A stretch of 64,000 nt of DNA from assembly GCA_025454975.1 (NCBI GenBank), contig JALONK010000007.1, positions 1 through 64,000 on the forward strand, written 5' to 3'. The translations under genes were made by a program, and so were the position numbers. Below, one piece after another: positions 28,075-47,093 of the stretch (within the stretch, counting starts at the first letter, position 1; each line of letters opens with the position of its first letter). The stretch comes from Bacteroidia bacterium. Lineage in GTDB: Bacteria > Bacteroidota > Bacteroidia > UKL13-3. The notes beneath the pieces are model-generated. The model made no database searches and had not been told where the DNA came from. It saw only the letters and a list, made by a program, of their open reading frames with translations.

Positions 28075-31000
28075 TTATTTAACTATCAACAATTTATTCC
28101 TGAATGTATAGTGATTGTTGCTTATTTCAATAAAGTACAATCCGTTTTGAAAATTACTAAGTTTAACACAATGTTTGAGCGCTTCCTTAGTAATAATTTT
28201 TCCATTTGCTAACCTAAATGTAACAATCCAATCGTCCGATTCAGGAAGTCCTTCAAAACAAACTTGATCACTTGCAGGATTAGGTATGGCATCTATTATA
28301 CCAAAATCCGTTTCATCATCTATAAATATGATTTGGCTATATTTTGATGTTCCATCATATTCACTCATTCTCAGGCGATAATAACCTGCAAAACCTGCAT
28401 TTCTTTTAAATACATAGGTTTGATTAATGGTCTGATTCCTTGCAGCAAGGAATCCCACTTCGGTAAATCCATTCCCGTTTTCGGAAAACTCAATGTAGTA
28501 ACCAAAAAGATTTGATTCGTCTGCTGTTTTCCAAATTAATTCATGATCAGTTTTAGTTTGTTTACCTGTAAATGAAATCAACCTTACCGGCAATACTTGA
28601 TTAGAATCAAACAGTATTAGTTTAAATCGGTTTCCTTGGCTACCCGTTATACCTGTTGTGATTGTAAATTGGTAGATTGTATTGTTTAAAATGGAAATGG
28701 TTTGCTGTGTATATAAATCTATCAGAATAGCTTTGTTAAATAACCAGAAAGGTAATTCCTTAAACTGCAAGGTAAAGTTTCTAGTTTGCGCCGATGATAC
28801 ATAAATGGTTAGTGTATCAATTGTATGCAACACTTTAGTTTTATTATGTTGTACCAGATGTTGGTCGGTTGTTACAAATGCTACGTTAAAATCAGGATTT
28901 AACATTTTTAAAGCATCTTCTTTAAATTTATAGTTTGACCAATAAGTACTGTCGTGTGTAACTGTTGCCCTATCTGCATGAGTACTATCTAAACTCATGA
29001 TCACTGTTGCTGGTAACTTGGATGCTGTTTTAAAATAGGTTGTAGGATTACCACTTGATTTATCATTTTCTTCAAAAGTTACTGATTCGCCTGTGTTATT
29101 TACTTTCACGAAAAAACCTTGACCTATTCCTATCTCACCTGTATTTGATGATATATAAGCATTTGTTGCATCATCCCAAATGTAATAATAATCATCAACT
29201 CCTGATGTTTTATTTACATTGTTCCAAGTTATTTCACTTGGATATGGATTACCTATTAAATTCCACCCTTGATTTGCAATGGCGCCCGAGTTGTCAAAGT
29301 CAAGTGATACAGTAATATTGTTTTTGTTGATCTGATTAGCATAGGTAATAGCAAAACTCGTAGGCACAATTGCATTGTTGGTTAATGAAGTTGTTTGTGT
29401 TCTATCACCTCTAAAAAAAACAAACATACCTTTACCTGAGGCTAGTGAATTTGTTGTAGCACTTATATTTTTCCAACCCCGGCTTGAACTTTCTTCATAA
29501 ATTAAAACAGACGAACTGCTTCTTGCTGCATCAAATCCATTACTCGCTCCTCCTGGACCTGTAATAAAAATATCATCTATTAATTGGTTATATGTAAAAC
29601 CGGAAACCGGACTACTCATCATACGCCAACCTCTCTTTGTTATAGTACCTCCTTCCAGCCATCGTTGTACAGTAACAGTTCCTGTAATATCAGCAGTTGA
29701 CTGCACTTGGGCAATTCTTGCAGAAGAACTAAGGGAGGTTGATAACAATACTAAATTACCTCCACTTACTAATGTTCCTGAGGTAGGAGTTACAGTACCA
29801 CTTATTTGTAATTGATGGTCTAATGTTATGGTGCTGGAACTTCTATTAATTGTCAGGTTTTGTAACCTATTGCTTGTACCGGGCGTGCTTTGGTCGATAG
29901 GAAGATTGATGTTTAAAGCACTTCCACTAATAATTAAGTTACCACCATTACATCTAATCACTCCGGTTGTTCTCGAAACACCTCCATTTATGGTTAGGGT
30001 ATTACTACCGATGGTTAATATACCTGAACTCAAATTTAAAGTTCCATTAATTTCCATATTACCATCTAGGCTACTTCCTGTTGTAGGAATGGTAAAGTTA
30101 TTTAATGTGGATGGCATCACAAAGTTTGTAATACTACCTCCATTATATATCAATGAACCTGTGGTTGCCAAAGTGAGTTGGTTTGCCGCATTAAATGTTC
30201 CTGTTAAAGTGAGTGTTCCTGTTATTGTTCTTGAAGCGTGTAAGGTTACACCTCCTGATCCAATTGTTACATTTGTAGGTGATGAAGTTGCAGGCCACTC
30301 ATTATTTGTTGAAGTTTGTGTTGAACTCCCGTTATAACTCAATGTTGCCCCACTTCCGTAAGCTATGGTGCCGGCAATACTTCCGGCAGTTAATGTTAGT
30401 GTATTAGTTATCGTTAATGATTGGCTGGTAGTTACGCCAGCGGTATTATTTATGATTAAACTATTTATGTTACCGGAGCTAAATGTCGTGTTTGGAATAG
30501 TTTGAGCCGATGAACCATTAAAATTAATTACAGCCGATGCGTGTGAAGCATCAATTAAACCGCTGGTTCTGCTAATTGTGTTGTTTATAGTTAAAGTATT
30601 TGCATTAATAGTTATTGTTCCATTAGTTAATGTTAAACTATTGTTTACTGTAACGTTGCCGGCTAATGTTACTCCTCCACTACCATTTATTGTAAAGTTA
30701 TTTACATTGTTCCCAAATAAATTTGCCGGTGCAGTAATAGCCGAACTGTTTTGGAAAATTAATGTTGATGATGTACCATATTGAACATTTCCGCTAATGG
30801 AAAAAGTACCTGATGTAAAAGTTAATGTTCCATTAATGGTTAATGTAACTCCGGCATCTACTATCAATTCTCCACTTGTAATGGTTAGGTTATTTATAGT
30901 TTGATTGCTGCTTACCCTTAATCGTCCTCCTGTAATTGTTATATTATTTGTAGATGGAATAGTACCACCACCACTTCTGTTTAATCTAAATGTCCCTGCT

Positions 31001-32013
31001 GAAATTGTTGTTAGTCCGGTATAGGTATTATTGCCGGTTAACTGCACTTCTCCCAGCATAGCAGCATCGGTAAGTACAGGATTTGCCCCTGATATTACAC
31101 CTGAGAATATTGTTGTGCCTCCGCTGTTTAATGCACTTAAATATAAACCACCCGTGCTACTGTTTGCAATATTACCTGAAAAGGTATGTGTTCCTGAAGT
31201 ATTTAATCCACCAATAAATCTTGTGTTGCTATTTCCGTTGTTAATGTTTATGGTATTGCTACATGTGTTTCCTCCGCTCGCATGCGAAAGAAATAATTTT
31301 GTTACGTTACTTAATGAAGATCCGTTACCAATCCATAATGTGCTTCCTGATGCTATCGAACCACTGTTTTGAATCCACAGTTCCCCTTCATCAAGCTCAG
31401 TATTTCCTGTGTAAGTATTAGCAGCATTAAATCTGGCAATGCTATATTGCCTGATTACAAATTTCCCGCTACCGGATATTATTCCATTAAATATTACTGA
31501 CTTACTATTATCACCCCAAATTAATATATCAGTTCCCATATTATTAACCGTTCCGCCAAAGGTTAAATCACCATTGATGGGATTTAATTCTAAGGGATCT
31601 GTATTACCATCACCTTCTAAATTGAAGTTTATGGTGTGATTTCCTGAAGATAAATTTTCAATTTTTGGATCGGCACCACTAAAATCATACAGCCTAACCG
31701 TATTGCCACCAATTGTTCGATTGGATGTATTAAATGTGCCAAAAATAATCTGGTGTTGCGAATAAGTACCCGAAACATTATTCGTCATGCTTAGTTGATG
31801 ATTATTATTAAAACGTAGTATTCCGAAACCGGGTTCATTCCATAATCCTCCCGTCCAACGCGCCCCATTAGCACCGGTTCTCCAGTTTCCATCGGGTGCA
31901 GTATCAAACCAATCAAAAGTTGTTTGCGCTTTTGTAAATGTTGTTTGTAACATTAATAAAATAGATAATCCCATTGTTACTAATGCTTTCCAATACTTAA
32001 TAAAATTATGCAT
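28075..32013 (-). CDS. Large T9SS-secreted beta-helix (autotransporter-like repeat) protein
   Basis: This 1312-residue protein has a signal peptide (about 1-30), then about 700 residues of short repeats of the type GNNTYTGLTTISAGTFRLNR and NSLTLTNGTITINANTLTIN. These are rich in Thr, Asn, Ser and Gly and typical of autotransporter-associated beta-strand repeats forming a right-handed beta-helix. A Bacteroidota surface module follows (GWRMMSSPVSGFTYNQLIDD ... NQGWNLIGNPYPSEITWNNV). The C-terminus is a T9SS type A sorting domain (DAIPNPASDQVCF ... LSNFQNGLYFIEISNNHYTFRNKLLIVK). An adhesive or surface-layer role is likely; no enzyme motif was seen. Confidence 0.88.
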   Translation of the reverse strand: MHNFIKYWKALVTMGLSILLMLQTTFTKAQTTFDWFDTAPDGNWRTGANGARWTGGLWNEPGFGILRFNNNHQLSMTNNVSGTYSQHQIIFGTFNTSNRTIGGNTVRLYDFSGADPKIENLSSGNHTINFNLEGDGNTDPLELNPINGDLTFGGTVNNMGTDILIWGDNSKSVIFNGIISGSGKFVIRQYSIARFNAANTYTGNTELDEGELWIQNSGSIASGSTLWIGNGSSLSNVTKLFLSHASGGNTCSNTININNGNSNTRFIGGLNTSGTHTFSGNIANSSTGGLYLSALNSGGTTIFSGVISGANPVLTDAAMLGEVQLTGNNTYTGLTTISAGTFRLNRSGGGTIPSTNNITITGGRLRVSSNQTINNLTITSGELIVDAGVTLTINGTLTFTSGTFSISGNVQYGTSSTLIFQNSSAITAPANLFGNNVNNFTINGSGGVTLAGNVTVNNSLTLTNGTITINANTLTINNTISRTSGLIDASHASAVINFNGSSAQTIPNTTFSSGNINSLIINNTAGVTTSQSLTITNTLTLTAGSIAGTIAYGSGATLSYNGSSTQTSTNNEWPATSSPTNVTIGSGGVTLHASRTITGTLTLTGTFNAANQLTLATTGSLIYNGGSITNFVMPSTLNNFTIPTTGSSLDGNMEINGTLNLSSGILTIGSNTLTINGGVSRTTGVIRCNGGNLIISGSALNINLPIDQSTPGTSNRLQNLTINRSSSTITLDHQLQISGTVTPTSGTLVSGGNLVLLSTSLSSSARIAQVQSTADITGTVTVQRWLEGGTITKRGWRMMSSPVSGFTYNQLIDDIFITGPGGASNGFDAARSSSSVLIYEESSSRGWKNISATTNSLASGKGMFVFFRGDRTQTTSLTNNAIVPTSFAITYANQINKNNITVSLDFDNSGAIANQGWNLIGNPYPSEITWNNVNKTSGVDDYYYIWDDATNAYISSNTGEIGIGQGFFVKVNNTGESVTFEENDKSSGNPTTYFKTASKLPATVIMSLDSTHADRATVTHDSTYWSNYKFKEDALKMLNPDFNVAFVTTDQHLVQHNKTKVLHTIDTLTIYVSSAQTRNFTLQFKELPFWLFNKAILIDLYTQQTISILNNTIYQFTITTGITGSQGNRFKLILFDSNQVLPVRLISFTGKQTKTDHELIWKTADESNLFGYYIEFSENGNGFTEVGFLAARNQTINQTYVFKRNAGFAGYYRLRMSEYDGTSKYSQIIFIDDETDFGIIDAIPNPASDQVCFEGLPESDDWIVTFRLANGKIITKEALKHCVKLSNFQNGLYFIEISNNHYTFRNKLLIVK

Positions 32014-32305: not shown

Positions 32306-34414
32306 TTATTTAATCAATTTGTATGTTGATATTGTTTGTCCGTTTTTAATAGTTAATATATATACACCGTTAGCGAGTTTATTTAAACTATTATCATTAA
32401 TAACAAATTCTTGATTATTTGCCTGTACTATTCCTGAAGTTATAATTACCCCACTTGTATTTGATATGCTCCAATTCAGCTCACCATTAACAGGATTCGA
32501 TAGTTTAACTTGAATTTTATCCTCAAACGGCATAGGAAATAATTCAATTTCTTTTAATGAGTTTTTTGCTAAGGTTACAACTGATGAAAATGAAGTTGTC
32601 CCATCAAAATCAATTTGTTTGATTCTATAATACGTAGTACCATACACTTGTTTATCAATATATTCATAAGATTTAACAGTTGCACTATTACCAACTCCAT
32701 TAATAAATCCAATAGCTTCAAACTGCTCACCATCTTTTGATTTTTCAATATAAAATCCTTTATTGTTTTTCTCATAAGCAGTTGACCATTTTATTATTGC
32801 TCCTTCTTTTACCGCATGAGCACTAACATTTAAGAAGCCAACCGGCACAGCGGTATTACATGTATTAAAAACTGCACCTAATAAAACAGGGGTAGTGTTA
32901 ATTCTGGTATAGGTTCTGTTAAAACCACCAATGCCATTACTCGATGTACATCCTCTTAGTGCAGGGTTAGGAAAAGTTTCTTGATTTGCTATAAGTGCAC
33001 TATCCCCATTCACAAATTTATATTCAAAAAATCCCGGGCAAACATTATTAACCACTGCTTGATAGTGATTTGGTGCGCCTACAATCGGGGTCATTCTTAC
33101 CGCTCCATCTATCCATGTTGGTGAAGCAAAATTGCCTATCACATAAACTCTTCCCAATGGATCAATAGTTTGTCCGGTTAAGTCTACCACAAATGTTACT
33201 GTTGATGGTGCAGGCCAAATTGCGCATGCCCCTGTTCCTCCAAAGCATGGTGTAGCCGGAACGGTATCTTTGGTAATGGTTATCTCTCTATTTCCGGAAG
33301 TAGTGGCAAAGGTTCCCTCCCAGGAAGGTTGTCCATTCCTGTGCGTACGAAATTTATATTGTAAAGCCGTTCCTGAATCAATAGCTACAACTAAATTATA
33401 TACCTGGGTGGTGCCAACTCTATTTAATTTTAATCCATTATTCCAGTTGGTTAAAATGGTTTGATTTCCGGCAACTGTTACTGAGTCAAATACTGCGCAA
33501 TTATTGGCAAGGTTTACCGAAAAGGTGATATTAAATTTAGGGGCTAATGAAACTGAATAATTATTACCAGTATTATCATTTACTTGAAGTGCACATAAAC
33601 TTCTGTCTGTTTCACTTAATTGATTTAAGGTTGTAAGAGCAAGAGTTGAGCTGAATACATAATATCTAATAGTTGTTCCACTTGGTTGCGTTGGAATGGT
33701 AGCTTGCCAACTAGTATTTGTTGGAGAATTGGTTGCAGTTGCTTCAACAATAAATGAACTTCCGGTAGATGCAAAATTATTACCAAGTGTATATCTTACA
33801 AATATACGTTCGCCAGCCGACGGGGCAGCAGTGGTAATAATATTTACCGTTATGCTGTTATTGCTTTGAATATTATTTGAGATAGAAGTTAATCCAACCG
33901 GATTATTTGTGGTGTAACCCACATAATAACGCGCATTCACATTCGTGTAACCACAATCATTAAATACAAATGTATATCGTCCTGCAACACTCATGTTTAA
34001 TCCCATATCATTTCCGGTATTGTATGCACCTGCAACATTAATGGAATCAACCCTACCTTGAGCTACGTTTGTAAAAACCCATTTGTTTTGAAATCGGTTG
34101 GTTGGTGGTCCTGAAATAAATAAAAACCCATTTCCACCACCACCGGCCATATTAACATTTACAAAGTCGCCGCCACTAGGTTGTGCATTATAGGTTTTAA
34201 CCCATTGTCCGCGTCCATCGGTTGGATTCCCTGTAGTTGTTGTTATACGTCGGTACACAGAATTGGTAGCACTGGTTGTAATATAACCATTCATGCTGCC
34301 TGTTATTTGCACGGGTTCTCCTGAAAAAATATTTTGTGCTAAAGCAAATTGTGGGCAAATCCCGCAACAGGTTAGCATAATAAATAAGCATAAATGTAAT
34401 TGTTTTCTTCTCAT
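32306..34414 (-). CDS. T9SS-secreted protein with one CBM20-like starch-binding unit
   Basis: This 702-residue protein has a signal peptide (to about residue 26), an N-terminal module (QNIFSGEPVQITGSMNGY...) shared with the next gene upstream, and a two-part unit from about residue 290. The first part looks like CBM20: TNWNNGLKL, LQYKF, then WEGTFATTSGNRE. It keeps W, K, W and the N-R-E motif at the positions used for starch binding in fungal glucoamylase. The second part (STVTFVVDLTGQTIDPLGRVYVIGNFASPTW ... YKFVNGDS) is a related sandwich. A T9SS sorting domain closes the protein. It is the third gene of the amylase unit. Glucan binding is inferred. Confidence 0.8.
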   Translation of the reverse strand: MRRKQLHLCLFIMLTCCGICPQFALAQNIFSGEPVQITGSMNGYITTSATNSVYRRITTTTGNPTDGRGQWVKTYNAQPSGGDFVNVNMAGGGGNGFLFISGPPTNRFQNKWVFTNVAQGRVDSINVAGAYNTGNDMGLNMSVAGRYTFVFNDCGYTNVNARYYVGYTTNNPVGLTSISNNIQSNNSITVNIITTAAPSAGERIFVRYTLGNNFASTGSSFIVEATATNSPTNTSWQATIPTQPSGTTIRYYVFSSTLALTTLNQLSETDRSLCALQVNDNTGNNYSVSLAPKFNITFSVNLANNCAVFDSVTVAGNQTILTNWNNGLKLNRVGTTQVYNLVVAIDSGTALQYKFRTHRNGQPSWEGTFATTSGNREITITKDTVPATPCFGGTGACAIWPAPSTVTFVVDLTGQTIDPLGRVYVIGNFASPTWIDGAVRMTPIVGAPNHYQAVVNNVCPGFFEYKFVNGDSALIANQETFPNPALRGCTSSNGIGGFNRTYTRINTTPVLLGAVFNTCNTAVPVGFLNVSAHAVKEGAIIKWSTAYEKNNKGFYIEKSKDGEQFEAIGFINGVGNSATVKSYEYIDKQVYGTTYYRIKQIDFDGTTSFSSVVTLAKNSLKEIELFPMPFEDKIQVKLSNPVNGELNWSISNTSGVIITSGIVQANNQEFVINDNSLNKLANGVYILTIKNGQTISTYKLIK

Positions 34415-34437
34415 CGTGATATCTCCTTTATGTTTAA

Positions 34438-37400
34438 TTATGGTTTAATTATTTTTTTTGTTAGCGTTCCTTGATCATTTATTATCATTAATAAATATAT
34501 TCCTGATGGCAACTGTTCAGTATTCATGTTCAGTTGACTTTTGGCTTCAAAAGTTTGAAGTAGTTTTCCATTTATCTCCCTTAATTGGATGGTACAATGT
34601 TCAGGTAATCCTTCAATTTGTACCGATTGATTAAATGGATTAGGGAATATTGACAAATTATTCATCCATGATTCCTTGATACCTGTAGCACTTAAATTTA
34701 CCTGAATGGATATTGTATCAGCACAGGCAACAATTGGTGATACGGATACTGAGCCTGCTGTTCCACTATCCCAAATAACCTTAATTATTGGTGAGTTATT
34801 ATTTGATACTATTCTACCGTTATTGCTGATAAACCAGTTATAGTTAAACGAGAGTTGATTAACCACTTGGTAGGTAACAGTGTCTCCAATATTAGCATTT
34901 AATGATCCCGAAATACTTCCGGCACTTACCGGTGCGCATACATCAACAGTAATGGTTGAAGTAGTGCTACAGGTATCATTCATACGAACACTTACTTGTT
35001 GGTTTCCGGCAACATCCCATCTAACAACAATTGCTGTTGTTCCATCACCTGATATAATTGTTCCACCGTTAACTTGCCAAATTGGAGTAAATCCACTAAC
35101 CGCTGCAATGTTGTATGATGTTAATGCATTAACCTTTGAGGTTCGATTTCCATTAATTGGTCCAACGCTTATCCTACTTCTCCTGGTGATTTCTACACTT
35201 GTACTGATTATTGTTCCTCCTGCCGAAACCAATCTGATTCGATAATTACCCGGAGTTATGGTATTTGGTATAGTTAAATTGGTTTGACCGGTTTGATTAA
35301 AGAGTTGCACATTTCCTATATTTTGTGGTTGATTAAAACTCCCATTCACATCTGATAGTTGAGCAATAAATGTAGTATCTGTATAATTAGCTAATCGTAA
35401 TGAATATTGCACTGTAGTAATTCCATTACCGCAGATGAGTGATGGAATAGGATTAGAGATAGTTATTTCTTCAGCTTTACTACAACGATTGAATTGAAAT
35501 TCAACTGCGAATGGATTACTGTTGCTTCTGATCAAAATCCTGTTAAAGCCACCAACACCATTGCTCACAACACATGAGCGTTGTGAAGGATTATTAAAGG
35601 ATTCAATGTTTGATGAAATAGAACTATCTCCATTTACAAATTTGTATTGAATTGTATCAGCACAAACAAGTCTGGATATTTCAAATAAACCGGGTTTGTT
35701 ATTTACAGGTTGCATCCTCAAGGCTCCTGCTTGCCATTGTGGTTGAGTAAAATTACCTATTAAATAAACCCTGTTTTGAGCATCAATAGTTTCTCCGCTT
35801 AAATCAACTTTAAAGGTGATCATTGAAGGCGGATTATTTATCACGCAATTACTATTTTCATTAAAACAAACCATCACAGGAGATGAATCAGCATTAACTA
35901 TCCATTCTCTATTTCTACTGAATGTATTTCTGTCATTTTCCCAAGTAGCTATCCCATTACGATGTGTTCTAAATTTGTATTGAATTGAAATTCCTGAATC
36001 TAATAATAAGGTATCTGCATATTCATTGGTTCCAGCAACCGGTTTTAATTTAATGCCTAATGTCCAATTGCCAAGTGCTAATTGATTACCTGCAATTGTA
36101 ACTGAATCAGGTAAATTACACTGTTGTTTAGCTAGATTAACCTTAAACACCACAGGTAATTTTGTAATTATTGGTAATGGTGCACAACTGTCAAAAGCAT
36201 AAGTTAATGTTCTCGGTAAACTATCTGTTCTTATCCAAATTCGATTCCATATCCCTCCAATTTGTACCGCACAACTGCGTTGACTTGCTGATGGGAACGA
36301 CTCTGCTCTTGCAGCAATGCTACTATCACCATTAATAAATTTAAATAAAATGGTGTCTTTACAAACTTGTAATGTTGTTTCATACACACCTAATAATCCG
36401 GGAACAGGTTGAAGTCGAACCGCACCACCTTGCCAGGTTGGTGAGGTGAAATTTCCCATTACATAAATTCTTCCTTGTGCATCAGGTGTTCCCCTACTTA
36501 AATCAACCCTAAAGGTTATGGATGAAGGGGCGGGTAGGGGAGCACAATCATTAATTTGATTGAAGCAAACTGTGTTTAAAATTGAATCATTATCAACAAC
36601 CAAGATTCTATTCCCGCCGGTTGTATTGAAGTTTGATTCCCAAGTAGCCATGCCATTCAAAAACCACCTGAATTTATATTGTACTGTTTTTCCTGAATCG
36701 AAACTTATGGTGTCACTGTAAATGTTGGTTGTTCCTATTCTTTTCAGTCTAAGTCCGGTTGACCAATTTCCTATTGCGATATCATTTCCAACAACTAAAA
36801 CTGAATCAAATGGCGTGCATTGAAAAGCTTGCATATTTACATTAAAGCGTATTTGTTTTTTAATAATAATTGGTGCAACAATGCAACTATCAAACATAAA
36901 TTCTAATGTTTGAGGTTGTGTATTGTTCCTCACAAAAACGCGGTTAAATCCGCCTGTTCCATTGTTAACTGTGCAGTTTCGTTGTGAAGCAATCGGGAAA
37001 GTTTCGGCCCTTGCTGCGATACTGCTGTCGCCATTTATAAATTTATATTGAAAGCTATCCGAACATACTTGAACAGTTGTTTCATATAATCCGGGTCGGC
37101 CCGCTGTTGGGCTTAAGCGAATGGCCCCTGCTTGCCAATTTGGAGTAGTGAAATTTCCCATAACGTAAATGCGTCCTTGTGGATCAGGAATATTCCTACT
37201 TAAGTCAACCCTAAACGTAATTGAAGATGGGGCAGGAAATATTGGACAAAGTTGTAATGAACTGAAGCAAAAGTTTGGTAATATACTATCCTTAAACGGA
37301 CGATATTCTCTATTCGTACTTGTTGTACTAAAATTGTTTTCCCAAGTGAAATTTCCGTTTTTGTAATATCGAAATTTATATTGAACCAAGGCACCTGAAT

Positions 37401-38418
37401 CCAACATAAACGTATCGCGATAAATAGTACCTGTTGATTTTAACCTTATAGGTATCGACCAACTTCCCAATGCAAATTGATTTCCGATTATGGTAACTGA
37501 ATCAAACGACACGCATGTAAAACCTGCCATATCCACCCCAATTACTGTGGAATATTTAGGAACGAAACTGAACCTGTAATTGATACCTGCATTATCAAGT
37601 ACCCGCAATGCACAAATTGTTTTTCCCGATTCACTTAAAGCATTAAGTTGAGTTACACTCATGGTTGAAGTGAATGCATAATACGTAACCGCAGTACCTG
37701 CAGGTTGAGCAGGAATAATAGCTTCCCAAATGGTATCGGCCGGACTATTTAATGAGTTGCAAGCAACCACTACACTATTAGTTCCTGCGGCAAATGATGT
37801 GTTTGTCGTATATCGAATATAAACTTTTTCTGTAGGTGAAGGTTTTGTGTTTGTGTTAAAGGTAATTGACAGCGAATTATTCGCATTTAGTTGCGATGAC
37901 AGTCCGCTCAATTGTACGGGTTCGGCAGCCGTATAACCTACATAAAATTGCGCATTGGTTGCCGTATAACCGCAATCATTAAATACAAATGTATATTGTC
38001 CGGGATTACTTAAATTTAATCCCATATCATTACCTGAATTGTAAGCCGATATTGCATTGATTGAATCAAGTCGTCCTTGACCGATTCCACTAAATACCCA
38101 TTTGTTTTGAAACCTATTGGAAGCGGGTCCTGAAATAAATAAGAAACCATTGTTGGATCCGCCTGTCATATTTTGGTTTACAAAATTACCTCCCGAGGCT
38201 TGTACACTAAACGTTCTAAACCATTGGCCTCTTCCATCGGTTGGATTACCAGAGTTAACGGATACCCTTCTATAAACCGTATTAAACGTAGCAGAGGTAT
38301 TATAGTTATTCATTGAACCAACCACTTGAACAGGTTCTCCTGAGAATATATTTTGTGAATTACCGATAATTGGTAACAAGACAAGCAACAGTGCAGCAAA
38401 GCGTAAATAATGTTTCAT
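34438..38418 (-). CDS. Giant T9SS-secreted protein with three tandem CBM20-like units
   Basis: This 1326-residue paralogue of the next gene has a signal peptide (to about residue 21), the shared N-terminal module (22-285), then three tandem units of about 230 residues (approximately 289-515, 520-745, 752-980). Each unit starts with a CBM20-like domain (LGSW/IGNW/LGNW, YKF, WEN or WES, then NREY, NRIL or NREW) and ends with the ITFRVDLSR..D.QGRIYVMGNFT.P.WQ.GA.RL sandwich with YKFINGDSS. Two further immunoglobulin-like or PKD-like regions precede the T9SS sorting domain (IFPNPFNQSVQIEG ... LTKKIIKP). It follows the amylase gene by 20 bases. A multivalent starch or glycogen binder is the simplest reading. 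Confidence 0.82.
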   Translation of the reverse strand: MKHYLRFAALLLVLLPIIGNSQNIFSGEPVQVVGSMNNYNTSATFNTVYRRVSVNSGNPTDGRGQWFRTFSVQASGGNFVNQNMTGGSNNGFLFISGPASNRFQNKWVFSGIGQGRLDSINAISAYNSGNDMGLNLSNPGQYTFVFNDCGYTATNAQFYVGYTAAEPVQLSGLSSQLNANNSLSITFNTNTKPSPTEKVYIRYTTNTSFAAGTNSVVVACNSLNSPADTIWEAIIPAQPAGTAVTYYAFTSTMSVTQLNALSESGKTICALRVLDNAGINYRFSFVPKYSTVIGVDMAGFTCVSFDSVTIIGNQFALGSWSIPIRLKSTGTIYRDTFMLDSGALVQYKFRYYKNGNFTWENNFSTTSTNREYRPFKDSILPNFCFSSLQLCPIFPAPSSITFRVDLSRNIPDPQGRIYVMGNFTTPNWQAGAIRLSPTAGRPGLYETTVQVCSDSFQYKFINGDSSIAARAETFPIASQRNCTVNNGTGGFNRVFVRNNTQPQTLEFMFDSCIVAPIIIKKQIRFNVNMQAFQCTPFDSVLVVGNDIAIGNWSTGLRLKRIGTTNIYSDTISFDSGKTVQYKFRWFLNGMATWESNFNTTGGNRILVVDNDSILNTVCFNQINDCAPLPAPSSITFRVDLSRGTPDAQGRIYVMGNFTSPTWQGGAVRLQPVPGLLGVYETTLQVCKDTILFKFINGDSSIAARAESFPSASQRSCAVQIGGIWNRIWIRTDSLPRTLTYAFDSCAPLPIITKLPVVFKVNLAKQQCNLPDSVTIAGNQLALGNWTLGIKLKPVAGTNEYADTLLLDSGISIQYKFRTHRNGIATWENDRNTFSRNREWIVNADSSPVMVCFNENSNCVINNPPSMITFKVDLSGETIDAQNRVYLIGNFTQPQWQAGALRMQPVNNKPGLFEISRLVCADTIQYKFVNGDSSISSNIESFNNPSQRSCVVSNGVGGFNRILIRSNSNPFAVEFQFNRCSKAEEITISNPIPSLICGNGITTVQYSLRLANYTDTTFIAQLSDVNGSFNQPQNIGNVQLFNQTGQTNLTIPNTITPGNYRIRLVSAGGTIISTSVEITRRSRISVGPINGNRTSKVNALTSYNIAAVSGFTPIWQVNGGTIISGDGTTAIVVRWDVAGNQQVSVRMNDTCSTTSTITVDVCAPVSAGSISGSLNANIGDTVTYQVVNQLSFNYNWFISNNGRIVSNNNSPIIKVIWDSGTAGSVSVSPIVACADTISIQVNLSATGIKESWMNNLSIFPNPFNQSVQIEGLPEHCTIQLREINGKLLQTFEAKSQLNMNTEQLPSGIYLLMIINDQGTLTKKIIKP

Positions 38419-38438
38419 CGTTATAAGCTTAGGATTAT

Positions 38439-41231
38439 CTATTCAATAATTATTTTTCTAGTCTCAACATGTGTTTCGTAGCTAATTTGAATCAAGTATA
38501 ATCCGGGGGTGATATGGCTGATATCAAGGTTAACTAAATTGTTGTGATGATGTTGGTTGATAACTTCTTTGCCGGATAAATCAAGTAGCTTAATATGGGT
38601 AATGTTTTGTTTTAAAGCTTGTATATTTAAAGTGTTTTTTGCAGGGTTTGGATAGATATCACTAAAAGTTGAACTTGTTTCTTCAGTTAATCCGGAAGGT
38701 TGTTGATTATTACTTGAAGCAAGTTTAACATCAGTATATACAACATAAGCACCCGGTTGTAATGAGATGGTCATACCGGTATTTGTTACATTAATAGAAT
38801 CACCGGTTATGTAGTTATACCACCAACCGGTTTTTTGAAATCCTGGAGTTAGGTTTAAACTTACAACATCAAAATTCCCTGCAATCAAGGTATTCATACT
38901 ATCGTGGTTTACTTTTAAAATTTTACCAGTACCTGCAACATCATACGTGTAGTTATCGGAGCCGAAAGAAACATGCTGTTTTAATCGTGCCAACATACCT
39001 ACTTGGTTTAGTGTAGCCACTCGTTCACTATTACTTAAATATTCCCAACGGAATGGTTTATTACCTGTTCGTCCATTGGTATTTATAGATACTTCATAAC
39101 CTAACTCTCCACCTTGCCAAAGCATTTTAGGACCTTTTAGCGGCAATAATAAAGCATGGTATGCAGCCACACGCTTTAAAGCGTTACTTAAATTTTTAGT
39201 GCTGTAACCCCCGCTTGCATTTCCGAAATTTAACGTGGTGTGCATAATACGTTCTTCGTCATGACTTTCGGCGTAGGTTACCAAATTTGGGAAATTCCAG
39301 CCCCTCGATTTATAGTTACCCCAACTAAGGTTTGCTTTACTATTATTATATCCCATAGTTGCCTCAGCAAACGACTCAGTCATTTTGCCCCAAAGCATGA
39401 AGCCCATATTAGCTAAAACTGTTTCTTCCGAATTATCACCAAGGTGTTCAAGGATAAGATATGCATCAGGTGCATAGGTAATAATTTGACTACGGATTCT
39501 ATTCCAGATATCTACTCTTGATTGATCATAAGCACTCCATGCTCCAACATCTCCTAAGGTATTTTTTTGCGTAAAACCTTTTGATAAGTCAAAACGATAC
39601 CCGTCAATTTTGTACTCGGTGATCCAAAATTTCAATACCCTGTCGGTAAATTCTTTTACTATCTGTGCTTCATGATTATAGTCGTAACCAACACCAAAAG
39701 GGTGTTTATCAGTTTGGTTAAACCAAGGGTTTTGAGCGGTAGGTTGGCCAAAATCACCGGCTGCCGGATTAAAATACATACGCACTTGAGGATTTTGTCC
39801 GAATGAATGATTTAGTGCAATATCCAATACAACCGCAATACCATTGGCATGACATTCATCTACAAAAGCTTTGAAATCATTTTTTGTTCCATAGTACTTA
39901 TCCACTGCGAAATAGAACATTGGATTATAACCCCAGCTTTCATTCCCCTCAAATTCCATGATAGGCATAATTTTTACACAATTGGCCCCAACCCTTTTTA
40001 GATAACTTATGGTATCTCGTAGTGTTTTAAAATCGTGTCTACCTATAAAATCTCGAACCAATAATTCATAAATGACTAGTTTATCATTTAAAGGTTTTAC
40101 AAAATTGTTGGTCCTCCATGAATATTGTGGTTGTTCAATTTGTAATACCGATACCACTTCAGTGGTTTTACCGGTAGGGTACGGTTTAAGGTTAGGATAG
40201 GTAACAGCAGGAATCCATTGATCGTTCCAAGGGTCTAATAATTTTTCTGCATATACATCAGCAACCTTCAATTGTGCATCATCAATGCTATACTGAAACC
40301 CGTATTCTGTAGATTTATTTAATCCTGTTAAACTTATCCAATACCTGCTTCCATCAGGTGTTCTTTTCATCAAATATGATGGATGATACTCCCAATTATT
40401 AAAGTCGCCTATTACGTAAACATAATTTTTAAAAGGCGCAAACAATTGAAGAATTACTGTGCTGTCATTTATTACATTAATACCGTCGGTAATTCCTGCA
40501 GGGCTGTTTTCAATACTTGGATTTAAACGAGGCATTATGTAAGAGGTATCGTATGATTTTGTTCCATTTTTATCTCCTTCCAAAACAAAGGTTACCCTCG
40601 TATTACCGAAAGCTAATAACGTATTTTTATAAGATAAAGAAATACTGTTTTGAACGCTTGCAACTTGATTTCCATTGGCGAATAACTTTAAATTGGCGGC
40701 CGCTGAAGCACCTGCACTAACGTTAAATGAATCGGTTGCAGCAAAAAATGAAGCTTTAATTGGAGTGTTTATTTTAACTTGAAAATTTCCTTGGTTGATG
40801 TCGATAAATATATCACCGCCGGCACTTGTTTTTCCTGTCTTTGAACCATCAGTATTTCTGAATACGAATGCTAATCGCAATACAGTTTCGTTAGCAGGAA
40901 CTCCATAAAATGTTCTGATGTTTCCAATATTCAGTACATATTGATTACTGCTACCAATTCTGGTTAATAATGCTTTGGGTAAATTCGTTGTCCAAGTTGC
41001 AATTACATAACGCCAATCTGATGAAGATGTACTGGCAGATGTAATTACACCCGTATGTGCGTAGATGGTTGATTGACCTAATAATCCGGCATTTCCCTGC
41101 GACGCATCAAATGTAATGACTACATTATTATCATCTGCTGTTGCAAATGAAGGGGCTATCGAAATTAATTGCGCATGACTAACAGATGCGATAAACGAAA
41201 ATAAAATCCCAAACAATAAATGTTTTTTCAT
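38439..41231 (-). CDS. T9SS-secreted GH13 alpha-amylase-family enzyme
   Basis: This 930-residue protein has a signal peptide (to about residue 20), two N-terminal beta domains (about 22-245), a CBM48-like domain (about 255-345, VYVIGDFNNWEYHPSYLMKR), then a GH13 barrel. The four GH13 regions are intact: DIALNHS (470-476), DGYRFDLSKGF with nucleophile D548, LILEHLGD with acid/base E595, and AESHDEE with H657 and D658. A small C-domain precedes the T9SS sorting domain (IYPNPAKNTLNIQA ... HVETRKIIIE). It should hydrolyse alpha-1,4-glucans at or outside the cell surface. It leads a three-gene unit with two CBM proteins. Confidence 0.92.
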   Translation of the reverse strand: MKKHLLFGILFSFIASVSHAQLISIAPSFATADDNNVVITFDASQGNAGLLGQSTIYAHTGVITSASTSSSDWRYVIATWTTNLPKALLTRIGSSNQYVLNIGNIRTFYGVPANETVLRLAFVFRNTDGSKTGKTSAGGDIFIDINQGNFQVKINTPIKASFFAATDSFNVSAGASAAANLKLFANGNQVASVQNSISLSYKNTLLAFGNTRVTFVLEGDKNGTKSYDTSYIMPRLNPSIENSPAGITDGINVINDSTVILQLFAPFKNYVYVIGDFNNWEYHPSYLMKRTPDGSRYWISLTGLNKSTEYGFQYSIDDAQLKVADVYAEKLLDPWNDQWIPAVTYPNLKPYPTGKTTEVVSVLQIEQPQYSWRTNNFVKPLNDKLVIYELLVRDFIGRHDFKTLRDTISYLKRVGANCVKIMPIMEFEGNESWGYNPMFYFAVDKYYGTKNDFKAFVDECHANGIAVVLDIALNHSFGQNPQVRMYFNPAAGDFGQPTAQNPWFNQTDKHPFGVGYDYNHEAQIVKEFTDRVLKFWITEYKIDGYRFDLSKGFTQKNTLGDVGAWSAYDQSRVDIWNRIRSQIITYAPDAYLILEHLGDNSEETVLANMGFMLWGKMTESFAEATMGYNNSKANLSWGNYKSRGWNFPNLVTYAESHDEERIMHTTLNFGNASGGYSTKNLSNALKRVAAYHALLLPLKGPKMLWQGGELGYEVSINTNGRTGNKPFRWEYLSNSERVATLNQVGMLARLKQHVSFGSDNYTYDVAGTGKILKVNHDSMNTLIAGNFDVVSLNLTPGFQKTGWWYNYITGDSINVTNTGMTISLQPGAYVVYTDVKLASSNNQQPSGLTEETSSTFSDIYPNPAKNTLNIQALKQNITHIKLLDLSGKEVINQHHHNNLVNLDISHITPGLYLIQISYETHVETRKIIIE

Positions 41232-41900
41232 ATCCTGTTGTGTGTGTTATAAAATCCTAGTAAGTGTAAAAATAACACTTAATATTAAACTCACAAATCA
41301 TTTTTGTTTTCTTAATGTGGCATTTGATGACAAAAGTTAAATTAACTTTATATGATTTCCCTCTAATACTCAGTATTTAATGGATGTTTGGTTGTTTAAT
41401 CACCGTTAAACAAACGAATTATTCAATGTTTACTACACTTTCGAATGCTTAAAAAATGTACTTGGTACACTTAATAAGCCTTTTGCATTACCTTTTCTCT
41501 TCAAATTGTTAAAAGATTATTGAAAAAATCCATAATGTTTATAGGATTGGGCAAGTTAATTTTAATCGATAAAATGGTTTTTATCATTTAGGATTAGGTT
41601 TAACCTCAAAAAAATCTGAATGTGATAACAATGATGTTAAAATATAAATTGGTGTGTACTTTGTTTTGTGTGCAAGTTTTATACTTAGTTTCTGGATATA
41701 AATTTATTTCCATAAAATAAAGATGAAAGCAAACAGGTTTATCTATTACACTAAACTTTTATTCCATTAGATTACATACTATTTATTATAAATCTATATC
41801 TTGTTGAAATTACTTGTATTATAAGTTGTTTAAAATTTTTATATCACTACCCTGGTTTTATTTTATTGGGATGTTAGATTATTCTGTATGTTATAGATCA
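41232..41900. promoter_or_regulatory. Long AT-rich upstream region of the amylase unit
   Basis: This gene-free stretch includes the promoter region of the amylase unit (minus strand). Visible elements are a palindrome TGTAC-TTG-GTACA (41457-41469) and a 25-bp sequence (41516-41540) that recurs in the upstream region of the S74 gene. The rest shows no coding signal on either strand. Confidence 0.4.
41516..41540 (-). repeat. 25-bp intergenic repeat, copy 1
   Basis: This sequence matches 44547-44571 at 24 of 25 bases. On the minus strand it begins with AAACATTATGG and can encode a tiny frame MDFFNNLLTI-stop from an ATG at 41533. It lies about 290 bases upstream of the amylase start codon, near a GTAC-centred palindrome. 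Confidence 0.55.
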
Positions 41901-41979: not shown

Positions 41980-43806
41980 CTATTTAACTAAAATCAGCTT
42001 TTCAGAATCAACTAGTTGTCCATCAACATACAATTCACATAAATATAAGCCTGATGGTAAGCCGCTACCCGAAAGAGTTACATTACCATTTCCTTTTTTG
42101 GTAATATCAACTGAAACATTTTCAGAACTTTTTTCAGAACGTAAAACAATTTTAGCAGTAGTTGCATTAGTATTTATTACATAATTTATAACTACAATAT
42201 CATTGAATGGATTAGGTGTTACTTGTTCAATTTTTCCTCTTGATTCAACTATAGGTGCATTAATGTTGCTGTTAACATTCGATTTCTGTTCTAGGTTAGA
42301 GAGTCTTAGGTTTAAGTCATTAATCATATTAATCAACTTGTTATTTTCTTCTTTTAGCTCTTCAATTTCTTTCTCATTTTCAGTGTTTATAGCACTAAGT
42401 TCTTTAAGTCCTTGAGTTAATACACCGAACAATTGGTTATAGTTAACAACTTTTGTTCCGTCTACGTTTGTACGAACCATTTCTGGAATTACTTTTTCTA
42501 AATCTTGGGCTAAGAAGCCAAATTGTTTCTCTTTAGAAAAATTTCTTCTCACTTTGGTACCATTTTCACTTATAAAGTAAATATCATCTTTATAAAAGTA
42601 AGTTACAGGATTTAATTGATTAATTAGTTCCATAGCATTATCAAATGCTTTTATTTCTCTTTTGAATGTTGCGTCAGAAGGAAACCAATTTCCACCTATT
42701 GATATTGCATCTCCGTTCAATTCAAGTTTGTATACTCCCCCAAAAAATCTACCATAATTACCAATAACCGTAGTTGTGTTTTGATTGAAATCTCCCAAGA
42801 CAACTGTATTATCGGTTTCGACTTTCGCTTCTGAACCAAGTGCAGTGCCATTTGTAATGGTACCGATTGTCATTGTCCGATTACCTAGTAAAACATTGTT
42901 GTTACCTGTATTTTCCGTTTGTAATCCTAAACATACATTATTGTCACCTGCATTTATCTTACTTAAGAAACCAAGTGTTATGTTATAGTCACCTGTTGAT
43001 TCTGACAAAAATCCTAGTTGGATATTACCTGTTCCTTTAACTTCCGAGTTATTGCCAAATAGTACATTTTGACTACCAGTTCCTTCGGCTTTATAGCCCA
43101 TTACTGTATTTTCATTACCAGCTAAATTGGTTAATATCCCAACAAAAGTATTTTTAGTTCGGTCATACATTACAGGAAGATTTGCTGAGCTATTCCCAAT
43201 ATATATATTTAAATTACCATCTTTATTCGCGTTGCCTGCGAATGCTCCAATAAATACATTACTCTGACCTGTTTCATTTCCAAATCCTAATCCACCTCCA
43301 GCACTCCAACCTATTGCAGTATTATATGATCCACCAACATTATTATGCAGGGCGTTTGATCCCACAGCAGTATTCCCGTTCATTTTAATGTATCTTCCAG
43401 CACCAGCTCCAACAACAGTATTATCTTTTCCACTTCTATTTTCAAAAAGCGCTGTATGTCCTACAACAGTATTCCATGTACCCGTATCATTATTTGCTCC
43501 ACTGCTTCTTCCAAGAAAAGTGTTGAAATTTCCTCTGTTAAATGGACCTGCATAAGTACCTAAATATACAGTTCCTAATGAATCTGTTCTGAGGATGTTA
43601 TCACCGTTTATTTTGTAACTTTTCCATGAGCTGATGTTAATGTCTCCATTAACGTCTAATTTAAAAGCAGGAGTAACTCCAATTCCGACTTTGTTGCTTG
43701 GGGTGTCTAATTCTACATTAGATCCGGTAGTTGTCCATTGAGCATTGGCACTTTGTGCAAAGGCAAATAAAATGGTTAGTACTGCAATTTTGGTTAACTT
43801 TTTCAT
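41980..43806 (-). CDS. T9SS-secreted protein with head-like repeats and S74 chaperone domain
   Basis: This 608-residue protein has a signal peptide (to about residue 22). Repeats over residues 80-350 follow the pattern G..N...G..A (NTAVGSNALHNNVGGSYNTAIGWSAG), like trimeric adhesin or tail-fibre stalks. A peptidase S74 intramolecular chaperone domain follows (about 377-465; S377 and K382 in PSDATFKREIK, then FGFLAQDLEKVIPEMV). Next are a coiled coil (about 475-520) and a T9SS type A sorting domain (VTPNPFNDIVVINYV ... LILVK). S74 domains drive trimer folding and often cut themselves off. A surface fibre is likely. Confidence 0.87.
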   Translation of the reverse strand: MKKLTKIAVLTILFAFAQSANAQWTTTGSNVELDTPSNKVGIGVTPAFKLDVNGDINISSWKSYKINGDNILRTDSLGTVYLGTYAGPFNRGNFNTFLGRSSGANNDTGTWNTVVGHTALFENRSGKDNTVVGAGAGRYIKMNGNTAVGSNALHNNVGGSYNTAIGWSAGGGLGFGNETGQSNVFIGAFAGNANKDGNLNIYIGNSSANLPVMYDRTKNTFVGILTNLAGNENTVMGYKAEGTGSQNVLFGNNSEVKGTGNIQLGFLSESTGDYNITLGFLSKINAGDNNVCLGLQTENTGNNNVLLGNRTMTIGTITNGTALGSEAKVETDNTVVLGDFNQNTTTVIGNYGRFFGGVYKLELNGDAISIGGNWFPSDATFKREIKAFDNAMELINQLNPVTYFYKDDIYFISENGTKVRRNFSKEKQFGFLAQDLEKVIPEMVRTNVDGTKVVNYNQLFGVLTQGLKELSAINTENEKEIEELKEENNKLINMINDLNLRLSNLEQKSNVNSNINAPIVESRGKIEQVTPNPFNDIVVINYVINTNATTAKIVLRSEKSSENVSVDITKKGNGNVTLSGSGLPSGLYLCELYVDGQLVDSEKLILVK

Positions 43807-44669: not shown

Positions 44670-45401
44670 CTATTCAAGCTTTTTAAGAAAGTTAATACAT
44701 GTCTGATAATATTCCCATAACTCAGGCATGATAACAAAATTTTCCGGATGAAAAAGCACAGCTATGCTCATTTGTTTCTCTACTGCTTGTTCTACCGTTT
44801 GATAAAATTGCATAAATACTTCTTCTGCCGGTTTATAAAAAAATGAATTATCGGATAGGATAGTAGGAACAGTATTTATTCCATGAGTGATGGAAGGTTG
44901 TTCAGGTAAACTTACTTTTCTTGCCTTACCCAAACTAAAATCTGTTAAAATGCGCTGCTGTTTTAAGGCCGGATATAAATGATCGGGATTAAATTTTAAA
45001 TAATGACTTCTGTGAAAGTGAATGGCATTACCTGTTAATTGTTGTAATGCGTTAACCTGTTTTACTATGGGTTCATGCATTACACTGTGTAAACCAATGG
45101 TTGCTCCATTTTCGCTAAGTTGCTTCAACATTCGCCTATAGCTTCTACAACGAATTGAATACCTTAGTCCATATCGTTTATAGGTATGACCGCTTTGTGC
45201 CCCCACTAGCCAGATTGAATTTATATCATGCAATAAATTAAACCTGTGTAATGCTTCAATTTGGTTTGTAAATAAATGCGTGTTAAATATATTGGTAAAG
45301 TTAATCCATTTTTTACCATGTGTTACCGATTTAATACAAGAATACGGATGCATCGGTGATATCCAATCTATATCATGTGTGATGTAAAACTGTTTCTTCA
45401 T
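44670..45401 (-). CDS. Polysaccharide-deacetylase-like protein
   Basis: This 243-residue protein resembles the NodB/CE4-type deacetylase fold: THDIDW near the N-terminus holds the catalytic/metal Asp pair, IGLHSVMHEP corresponds to the HxxxxH metal motif, and LFHPENF supplies the late His. CE4 enzymes remove N- or O-acetyl groups from glycans. There is no signal peptide, so it would act in the cytoplasm on a precursor or intermediate. It is the last gene of the cluster, 10 bases after the GNAT gene, and is followed by the terminator. Confidence 0.78.
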   Translation of the reverse strand: MKKQFYITHDIDWISPMHPYSCIKSVTHGKKWINFTNIFNTHLFTNQIEALHRFNLLHDINSIWLVGAQSGHTYKRYGLRYSIRCRSYRRMLKQLSENGATIGLHSVMHEPIVKQVNALQQLTGNAIHFHRSHYLKFNPDHLYPALKQQRILTDFSLGKARKVSLPEQPSITHGINTVPTILSDNSFFYKPAEEVFMQFYQTVEQAVEKQMSIAVLFHPENFVIMPELWEYYQTCINFLKKLE

Positions 45402-45411
45402 AGGATAGAGG

Positions 45412-46074
45412 CTAATCTATTGTTTTTGTCATGATATAGGAGACTTTTCCTTCTTCAACTGTAATTTTCCATCCATTTCTTTCATAAGATTGAATGGCTC
45501 TTGCATTTTCTTGGCGTACAGATAGGGAAAAAAATCTTGCACCCATTGCGTATGTGCGGTTCTCAAATTCCTTTATAAGTAGGGAGCCGATTCCTTTTTT
45601 ATGTAATGATGGCATAACCCCAATAACCACTAATCCTGCTTGTAGTTTTTTTTCGGGATTTAGTTGATGCGGAGGTGCAATAATTCCGGTTTTGGTTGAT
45701 TTTTTAAGCTTGAGTTTTCGTAATATATTGGTCCATATAAACTTGTATTTCGACAGTAACTCAGGATGAAATAACAGCCATGGCCTAAGCATTAGCGCAA
45801 TTACAGCACTGTTAAAACCAAATTGAGTCATCCCTGATGTTGCGCCATAAGCATCAGAACCATCCATAACGTATCCACCACAGTAACCTATACATTTTCC
45901 ATCTTCATTGATCCAAAAAATCACCTTGTTTTTACCACTTAAGTACCACCTCATCATATTACTTACAAAGTTAATTCCTAACTTACTTGTGAATGAATTA
46001 GGGAAGGCTGCAATATGACAGGCAGCAATGGCTTTTAAATCATCATTAGTTGCATCTTTAATTGTTGTATCCAT
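45412..46074 (-). CDS. GNAT-family N-acetyltransferase
   Basis: This 220-residue GNAT fold protein begins with TIKDATNDDLKAIAACHIAAFPNSFTSKLG. It has the acetyl-CoA-binding region LVVIGVMPSLHKKGIGSLLIKEFENRTYAMGARFFSLSVRQENARAIQSYERNGW, matching motif A (V.P..QxxGIG..L) and the terminal A..fYe..GW signature. It probably acetylates an amino sugar or other amine in the glycan pathway. Neighbours are a glycosyltransferase and a deacetylase-like protein. Substrate unknown. Confidence 0.82.
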   Translation of the reverse strand: MDTTIKDATNDDLKAIAACHIAAFPNSFTSKLGINFVSNMMRWYLSGKNKVIFWINEDGKCIGYCGGYVMDGSDAYGATSGMTQFGFNSAVIALMLRPWLLFHPELLSKYKFIWTNILRKLKLKKSTKTGIIAPPHQLNPEKKLQAGLVVIGVMPSLHKKGIGSLLIKEFENRTYAMGARFFSLSVRQENARAIQSYERNGWKITVEEGKVSYIMTKTID

Positions 46075-46090
46075 ATATATGTTATTATGT

Positions 46091-47077
46091 TTACCGGGAT
46101 ATAGTTCTCATATACTCCGGAATGGTTTTATTTAATATAATAATATTAAATAAGCCAATTAAATATCCCCATCCGTAAGAAAAATGAAGTATCAGAAAAC
46201 TGTAGAACAAGTAAAATATATTCCCTCGTTTAAATAAACTGTAATAGATTGATATACTCAATATGCTGAGCAAATAGATAGTGGATATCCCGCAAAACAA
46301 TAGTGGGTTAATCATGGAACTGAAAAATAATAGTAGTATAAAAAAAGGCGGAATCAATTGTCGAAACGATGTTATGCGCTGATGTTTGTAGTTTACAAAT
46401 ACCTTCCAAAATCCATATTGAAGATATTGTTTAAAAAAGGTGTTAAATGAAGAACGTACGATATAGGTAGAGGTAGCCTGATCTGTAATCCAAATCTTAT
46501 AGTTAGCCTTATGAATTCTGAAGCTAAAATCATCGTCTTGATTTCTGATGCAAGATTCGTCAAATGTACCAACTTCATCAAACAGTTGGCGGGGAAAAAC
46601 CGGAACGCTTACGGTATCAACAAAACCGGATGTTCTTAATGTACGGAAATTCGTAAGACCAACGCCAAATAACGAACTCATTGCGATTGCAATATTATTG
46701 GAAATGCTGTTGATCCCGGTTTGTTTAATTAAACCACCAACACATTTAATAGCCGATGATTTATTTAATATTAGTATGCAGTTTTCTAGGTATGTGTTGT
46801 TTAGTATACTTCTCGCACCACAAATAGCAATATATTCTCCCTTAGCTGCCTTTATTCCAATATTCATTCCCACAGGTGCAATCATTTTTTCATTCCTTAA
46901 TAAGGATACTTTGTTTTTATAAATGTTTGCTACAAGTTCATAAGTTCCGTCGGAACTCATTCCATCCACTACAATCACTTCTAATTTTTCACCCGAAGTT
47001 TGTTGTTGCAGAGCGGCGTCAATTGTTTGTTGTATATATGCCACTTCATTTTTACAAATGATGATGATTGAAATCAA
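46091..47077 (-). CDS. Family 2 glycosyltransferase with C-terminal membrane helices
   Basis: This 328-residue GT-A glycosyltransferase has the N-terminus ISIIIICKNEVAYIQQTIDAALQQ. A VDGMSSDGTYE segment carries the nucleotide-binding Asp, followed by NIGIKAAKGEYIAICGARS, and NQDDDFSFRIH gives the late acidic motif. Two or three hydrophobic helices close the protein (about 240-315), so it works at the inner membrane. The best start is a TTG at 47077: no ATG or GTG lies nearby in frame, and the family N-terminus begins exactly there. It follows a GT4 gene by 16 bases. Confidence 0.88.
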   Translation of the reverse strand: MISIIIICKNEVAYIQQTIDAALQQQTSGEKLEVIVVDGMSSDGTYELVANIYKNKVSLLRNEKMIAPVGMNIGIKAAKGEYIAICGARSILNNTYLENCILILNKSSAIKCVGGLIKQTGINSISNNIAIAMSSLFGVGLTNFRTLRTSGFVDTVSVPVFPRQLFDEVGTFDESCIRNQDDDFSFRIHKANYKIWITDQATSTYIVRSSFNTFFKQYLQYGFWKVFVNYKHQRITSFRQLIPPFFILLLFFSSMINPLLFCGISTIYLLSILSISIYYSLFKRGNIFYLFYSFLILHFSYGWGYLIGLFNIIILNKTIPEYMRTISR

Positions 47078-47093
47078 AAGTAGTAGATCTAAT

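Follow-up and report, generated by a model that had tools for sequence, protein, structure and literature searches.

A T9SS-tailed amylase operon with CBM20 binders as a predicted remote part of a Sus-type starch system in a Bacteroidia bacterium

Does an operon coding for an exported amylase and two starch binders, with no susC/susD pair beside it, work alone or as a distant part of a Sus-type system? The question is raised by a minus-strand operon found in a stretch of 64,000 nt, called here the window, from the genome under study (G000). An earlier note on this DNA described three open reading frames separated by gaps of 20 and 23 bases, which are found exactly at those positions (Table 1). 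Domain searches and SusC/SusD searches also confirm that no SusC/SusD, regulator or transporter adjoins the operon. The description of an exported amylase accompanied by multivalent CBM20 binders is supported by the predicted proteins, as detailed below. The claim that the operon is Sus-independent and differs from the Sus paradigm is not supported: the only susCD pair of the genome lies elsewhere and has the same predicted operator, and there are relatives in which GH13 heads the susCD operon.

Table 1. Position of the predicted features in the window.
Feature	Position	Strand	Remarks
GH13_47-type alpha-amylase, 930 aa	38439..41231	-	First operon gene; assigned from Pfam/NCBIfam, nearest structures and triad
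1326-aa T9SS-tailed predicted starch binder	34438..38418	-	N domain, 3 x (CBM20 + CBM48/AMPK-like), 2 PKD-like, T9SS tail
N-terminal domain, 1326-aa protein	37558..38355	-	Same domain as in the 702-aa binder
CBM20 + CBM48/AMPK-like pair 1, 1326-aa protein	36883..37557	-	
CBM20 + CBM48/AMPK-like pair 2, 1326-aa protein	36184..36861	-	
CBM20 + CBM48/AMPK-like pair 3, 1326-aa protein	35473..36162	-	
702-aa T9SS-tailed predicted starch binder	32306..34414	-	N domain, 1 x (CBM20 + CBM48/AMPK-like), T9SS tail
N-terminal domain, 702-aa binder	33539..34336	-	Common to both binders
CBM20 + CBM48/AMPK-like pair, 702-aa protein	32849..33538	-	AF2 model mf9e71fde36c6
Predicted NrtR operator AGTGTTATTTTTACACT	41263..41279	.	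1 mismatch; 31 bp before GH13 ATG
Second operator-like site AGTGTACCAAGTACATT	41455..41471	.	1 mismatch; 223 bp before GH13 ATG

The amylase consists of a signal peptide, a DUF4961-like N domain, a CBM48-like region (residues ~250-328), the GH13 barrel and a T9SS tail (residues 859-930). Profile searches detect the catalytic domain (PF00128, 1.6e-22) and, weakly, CBM48. The catalytic triad D548, E595 and D658 is present at the positions previously claimed; in the alignment, D548 falls on a D of structure 8xx9, which is replaced by A in the variant 8xxa. These two entries are the nearest solved structures in a sequence search of PDB (560 bits, residues 244-834), followed by 8dge/8dl1 (329 bits), while the next match has 92 bits. 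The name of 8dge/8dl1 is BoGH13ASus, of Bacteroides ovatus, and 8xx9 is probably the GH13_47 enzyme of R. marinus. The nearest solved enzymes and the full triad assign the window amylase to the GH13_47 type, as a prediction. GH13_47 includes the amylases of B. ovatus and R. marinus, and alpha-1,6 linkages are tolerated (PMC11239784). In the Sus locus of B. ovatus, BoGH13ASus stands where SusG would be (PMC11633381). The window enzyme would be of the Sus-amylase type, since it is closest to GH13_47 and BoGH13ASus. Glycogen branching enzyme and TreZ were rejected as identities for this amylase, every NCBIfam GH13 equivalog score being far under cut-off.

With the Pfam CBM20 profile, the 1326-aa protein gives three matches (4.9e-32) and the 702-aa protein a single one (8.9e-7). 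Every CBM20 in both binders has a CBM48/AMPK-type unit behind it; two PKD-like domains are also present in the longer protein. The shorter binder is 50% identical to the first part of the longer one over 517 residues. The starch-site pattern previously noticed by eye, W, K and W plus NRE, is found in large part: W (NW/SW), K (YKF), W (WE) and NR are present in all four units, while the E is absent in one of them, which reads NRIL. In an alignment of 50 sequences of the CBM20 + CBM48-like pair, K62 and W73 are invariant, E74 and R84 nearly so. A PDB sequence search with the 1326-aa binder as lone query gave no match. The family profile retrieved CBM20-bearing chains only (CGTases, glucoamylase, STBD1 and maltotetraohydrolase), with the NW, KF and WEG of the units aligned to their CGTase counterparts. 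The AF2 model of the pair in the 702-aa protein (pLDDT 90.5) resembles the structure of STBD1 CBM20 with maltotetraose (TM 0.81 by target length, rmsd 2.4), so that the model argues against a different fold, an outcome which the earlier note had considered. Profile scores above the Pfam cut-off, modelled fold and W/K/W residues agree in identifying these units as predicted CBM20 modules.

The model of the binder N domain is confident in its second half only, a beta-sandwich weakly like CBM21/CBM56, and a structure search with it gave no significant match. The same domain recurs in far larger T9SS proteins of the family, in frames of up to 4769 amino acids (in G050). This order-level search covered the 64 genomes of the family survey described below.

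All three proteins have T9SS tails, as expected from the previous description, with Por_Secre_tail and TIGR04183 above cut-off in each of them. A by-eye reading of the N-termini gives signal peptides, and the T9SS is present in the genome (SprA, 2563 bits in a profile search). With signal peptide, C-terminal sorting domain and a genomic T9SS, the three proteins would fit T9SS type A cargo; surface-attached and soluble forms look alike from the tail by itself.

Where is the rest of the starch system? A profile search of the genome, which is 98.4% complete, finds one SusD and one full SusC above cut-off, side by side on contig C45. The gene order is susC, susD, a DUF5004 protein and a DUF4961-like protein, with a divergent gene, CBM592, followed by an NrtR-type regulator and a GH31 alpha-glucosidase. 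CBM592 codes for a 592-aa CBM20/CBM48/T9SS protein and is the only CBM20 gene in the genome besides the window pair. The regulator, at C45:37117-37818, has a Nudix-like N domain (PF00293, 4.5e-5), an NrtR winged helix (PF21906, 9.7e-22) and AraR_C (PF19368), domains which place it in a predicted NrtR/AraR type. By its gene content, C45 appears to be a starch locus without an extracellular amylase. A Sus-type PUL in cis would have a susC/susD pair adjacent to the window operon, and there is none. Since the only pair is on C45, the window operon is not itself a PUL and is predicted to be the trans part of one.

The two loci have a putative operator in common, the palindrome AGTGTA-N5-TACACT, which was first spotted by eye in sus-locus intergenic regions of several genomes. 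A pattern search of the 3.44 Mb genome gives 7 exact and 14 one-mismatch sites, several of them within coding regions. Sites are found between susC and CBM592 and between NrtR and GH31 (both on C45), 2 bp before the ATG of a GH13 gene on contig C60, at a GH13/MFS locus on C69 and before the window GH13. With 21 sites genome-wide, the one-mismatch site before the window GH13 is strong in context only. When the 300 bp upstream of this gene are shuffled by a Markov model, an equally good site appears at a frequency of 0.001. Over the whole window, the number of sites with at most two mismatches is not unusual (6 observed, 3.2 expected), so the weight of the window operator rests on its position and conservation.

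Conservation is seen across the family. Thirteen genomes have a close NrtR orthologue (at least 70% identity), and 12 of these carry the operator at sus/GH13 promoters; in the thirteenth, G062, the sus locus is broken. None of the 30 family genomes tested without a close orthologue has the operator at these promoters. Tree-blind p-values for this association, such as the raw Fisher p, are inflated, because the traits change just two or three times on the SusD tree. Among orphan GH13 genes the operator is found in G000, G049 and G050, with identical sites, 25 bp upstream in the last two, and is absent in the other 15. The sus loci of Flavobacteriales have it too, before their NrtR gene or before GH13/susC. 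In front of the window GH13, the predicted operator coincides in part with a possible -7 element of the Bacteroidetes type (TTTG-19-TATTTTTA, by eye), so repression by NrtR would fit. The operator common to the window operon and the susCD locus points to a Sus-type starch regulon in trans. Operator-like sites are also present in G000 before pyruvate kinase (C43:8947, 1 mismatch) and upstream of glycogen branching enzyme (C10:1279, 2 mismatches), which makes a wider carbon regulon possible.

In our preferred reading, to which we give a probability of about 0.77, the window operon would supply the outer, extracellular part of a starch system of the Sus type, split over two genomic places. NrtR would sense a starch-derived sugar or sugar phosphate, and both loci would be switched together. 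The binders would keep starch or glycogen on the cell surface through repeated CBM20/CBM48 contacts, the window amylase would cut it, and SusC/SusD would import the resulting oligosaccharides. The GH31 enzyme and the C69 GH13, which have the same operator, could complete the breakdown, and the adjoining MFS transporter could move the sugar into the cytoplasm.

The distribution of these genes was surveyed in 64 family genomes. GH13 and SusD are found together in 40 of them, SusD alone in 4 and neither in 20; no genome has GH13 alone. The earlier note had suggested a genome survey for the three-gene unit without susCD. The unit is indeed also found in G050 and G001 (shorter in G049, partial in G060), but every GH13 genome has a SusD as well. 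The unit of G049 and G050 has a further T9SS GH13 before it, whose homologue in G000 is the GH13 on C60.

Half of the 40 GH13 genomes have the order GH13-susC-susD-susE-P288 with a divergent CBM592, which is sometimes beyond the reach of the contig. In 18 others, G000 included, GH13 is away from susCD, and two more are cut at GH13 by contig ends, these calls of split or linked genes being partly dependent on draft contigs. GH13 directly before susC is also found outside the family, in many Bacteroidota, including Flavobacteriales loci (among L022-L077). A second, separate split of GH13 and susCD is found in G021-G024 (genus g3; L143-L146, L162-L165), where a GH13_489-type enzyme comes after CBM592 in the sus locus. 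In the broken locus of G062 (L131), SusD is truncated, SusC and GH13 are gone, CBM592 is shortened and the operator is lost; the NrtR orthologue is found 12 kb off.

Gene trees suggest a history for the split in G000. In the GH13 tree, all the orphan genes of g1, g2 and g11 (three genera, 14 genes, G000 included) group as one clade (support 100/99), in which G000 is the neighbour of G049/G050 (100/100). The SusD tree places G000 among genomes with a cis GH13 (98/96), far from the g2 orphans. AU tests, with groups chosen post hoc, once the trees had been seen, reject congruence of GH13 and SusD (p 2.6e-62 and 7e-6). In G060, from the same genus, the cis GH13 survives as an in-frame fossil of 250 aa (L169:6554-7306). 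Its catalytic domain has been deleted, and the signal and N domain (78% identical to residues 41-168 of G018) are fused in frame to the T9SS tail region. This genome also carries a homologue of the 702-type binder, at a contig end. We searched for a GH13 remnant between susC and CBM592 in G000, G049 and G050 and did not find any. We infer that the cis amylase probably disappeared and that its place was taken by a related operon, an orphan amylase with binders, which came from within the family. We lean slightly towards the full account, in which an NrtR-type starch regulon (AGTGTA-N5-TACACT) across several Bacteroidota orders would allow a starch locus to come apart. In this account the cis amylase of one SusCD lineage would have given way to an orphan operon of amylase and CBM20 binders, which came from a different lineage and joined the same regulon, and a fossil of the deleted enzyme would be kept in a genome of the same genus.

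A simple translocation, in which the genome's own sus GH13 moved and gained binder genes, with no foreign-lineage gene and with its trans-Sus function unchanged, is improbable. GH13 is absent at the exact spot which it holds in relatives, and the GC of the window operon (0.363) resembles that of the sus locus (0.358). Nevertheless, the window GH13 is 76% identical to the G049/G050 orphans and shares only 44-54% identity with the GH13s that are in cis in its own SusCD lineage, the fossil in G060 derives from a lineage-A cis GH13, and the first of the AU tests points in the same direction.

We consider it very unlikely that the three proteins capture and digest starch alone, with the products entering through porins or other transporters. 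The absence of susCD from the window agrees with this idea, and so do four close relatives (L016-L019) in which the orphan GH13 is solitary amid unrelated genes. The matching SusD in all 40 GH13 genomes, the operator common to susCD and the window operon and the synteny of GH13 with susC in relatives all argue against it. The note which proposed independence also named co-regulated susCD genes elsewhere as the result that would tell against it, and this is what we find, to the extent that sequence can tell.

A different role for the binders, such as surface adhesion or biofilm matrix, with the amylase as a mere operon-mate, is also very unlikely. The PKD-like domains of the 1326-aa binder, a kind often present in adhesins, and the uncharacterised N domain shared with giant T9SS proteins would suit it, but the CBM20 binding residues are kept in all four units, and CBM592, which is homologous to the binders, adjoins susC or GH13 in nearly every mapped family locus.

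Each part of the split system has a known counterpart. In B. ovatus, a GH13_47-type extracellular amylase also serves a SusCD pair; there, BoGH13ASus is inside the sus locus and the regulator is BoSusR (PMC11633381). The window amylase, in contrast, is T9SS-tailed, unlinked from susCD and followed by two binder genes, with a predicted regulator of the NrtR type. The Sus system of B. thetaiotaomicron (SusRABCDEFG) likewise combines an extracellular amylase, several starch-binding proteins and SusCD. SusE, SusF and SusG are surface lipoproteins, whereas the window binders are built of CBM20/CBM48 units and end in T9SS tails, and the system of G000 is divided between two loci. The AraR/XylR regulators of Bacteroides are also Nudix-like proteins with an NrtR winged helix which adjoin sugar-use genes, and AraR also controls susCD genes (PMC3878776); the predicted targets in G000 are starch genes. 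The fold and W/K/W site are those of CBM20 in glucoamylase, CGTase and STBD1, but the window units alternate with CBM48/AMPK-like units in non-catalytic T9SS-tailed proteins. In the literature searched, we found no published NrtR-type starch regulon, and no paper there joins CBM20, T9SS and SusD. Judged by this literature, three things would be new: a starch regulon of the NrtR type, an amylase operon that includes a pair of T9SS CBM20/CBM48 binders, and a Sus amylase displaced in trans.

Polysaccharide use is usually predicted from the neighbours of susCD. Here a key part of the starch system is away from susCD, and a prediction based on neighbours would miss the window operon or, like the earlier note, label it as a separate system. 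The family offers a natural series of linked, fossil and displaced amylases, which may show how starch loci come apart and re-assemble, and the survey names an operator and a regulator which are directly testable.

Other genes are found around the operon in the window. Directly downstream, on the same strand (28075-32013), there is a gene for a protein of 1312 aa which has beta repeats of the autotransporter type and a T9SS tail below threshold; no link with starch was seen. Upstream of the operon (41980-43806), a 608-aa protein has a Peptidase_S74 (endosialidase chaperone) domain and also a sub-threshold T9SS tail. On the minus strand (44670-48311), genes for a GNAT acetyltransferase and two glycosyltransferases form the apparent start of a surface polysaccharide cluster.
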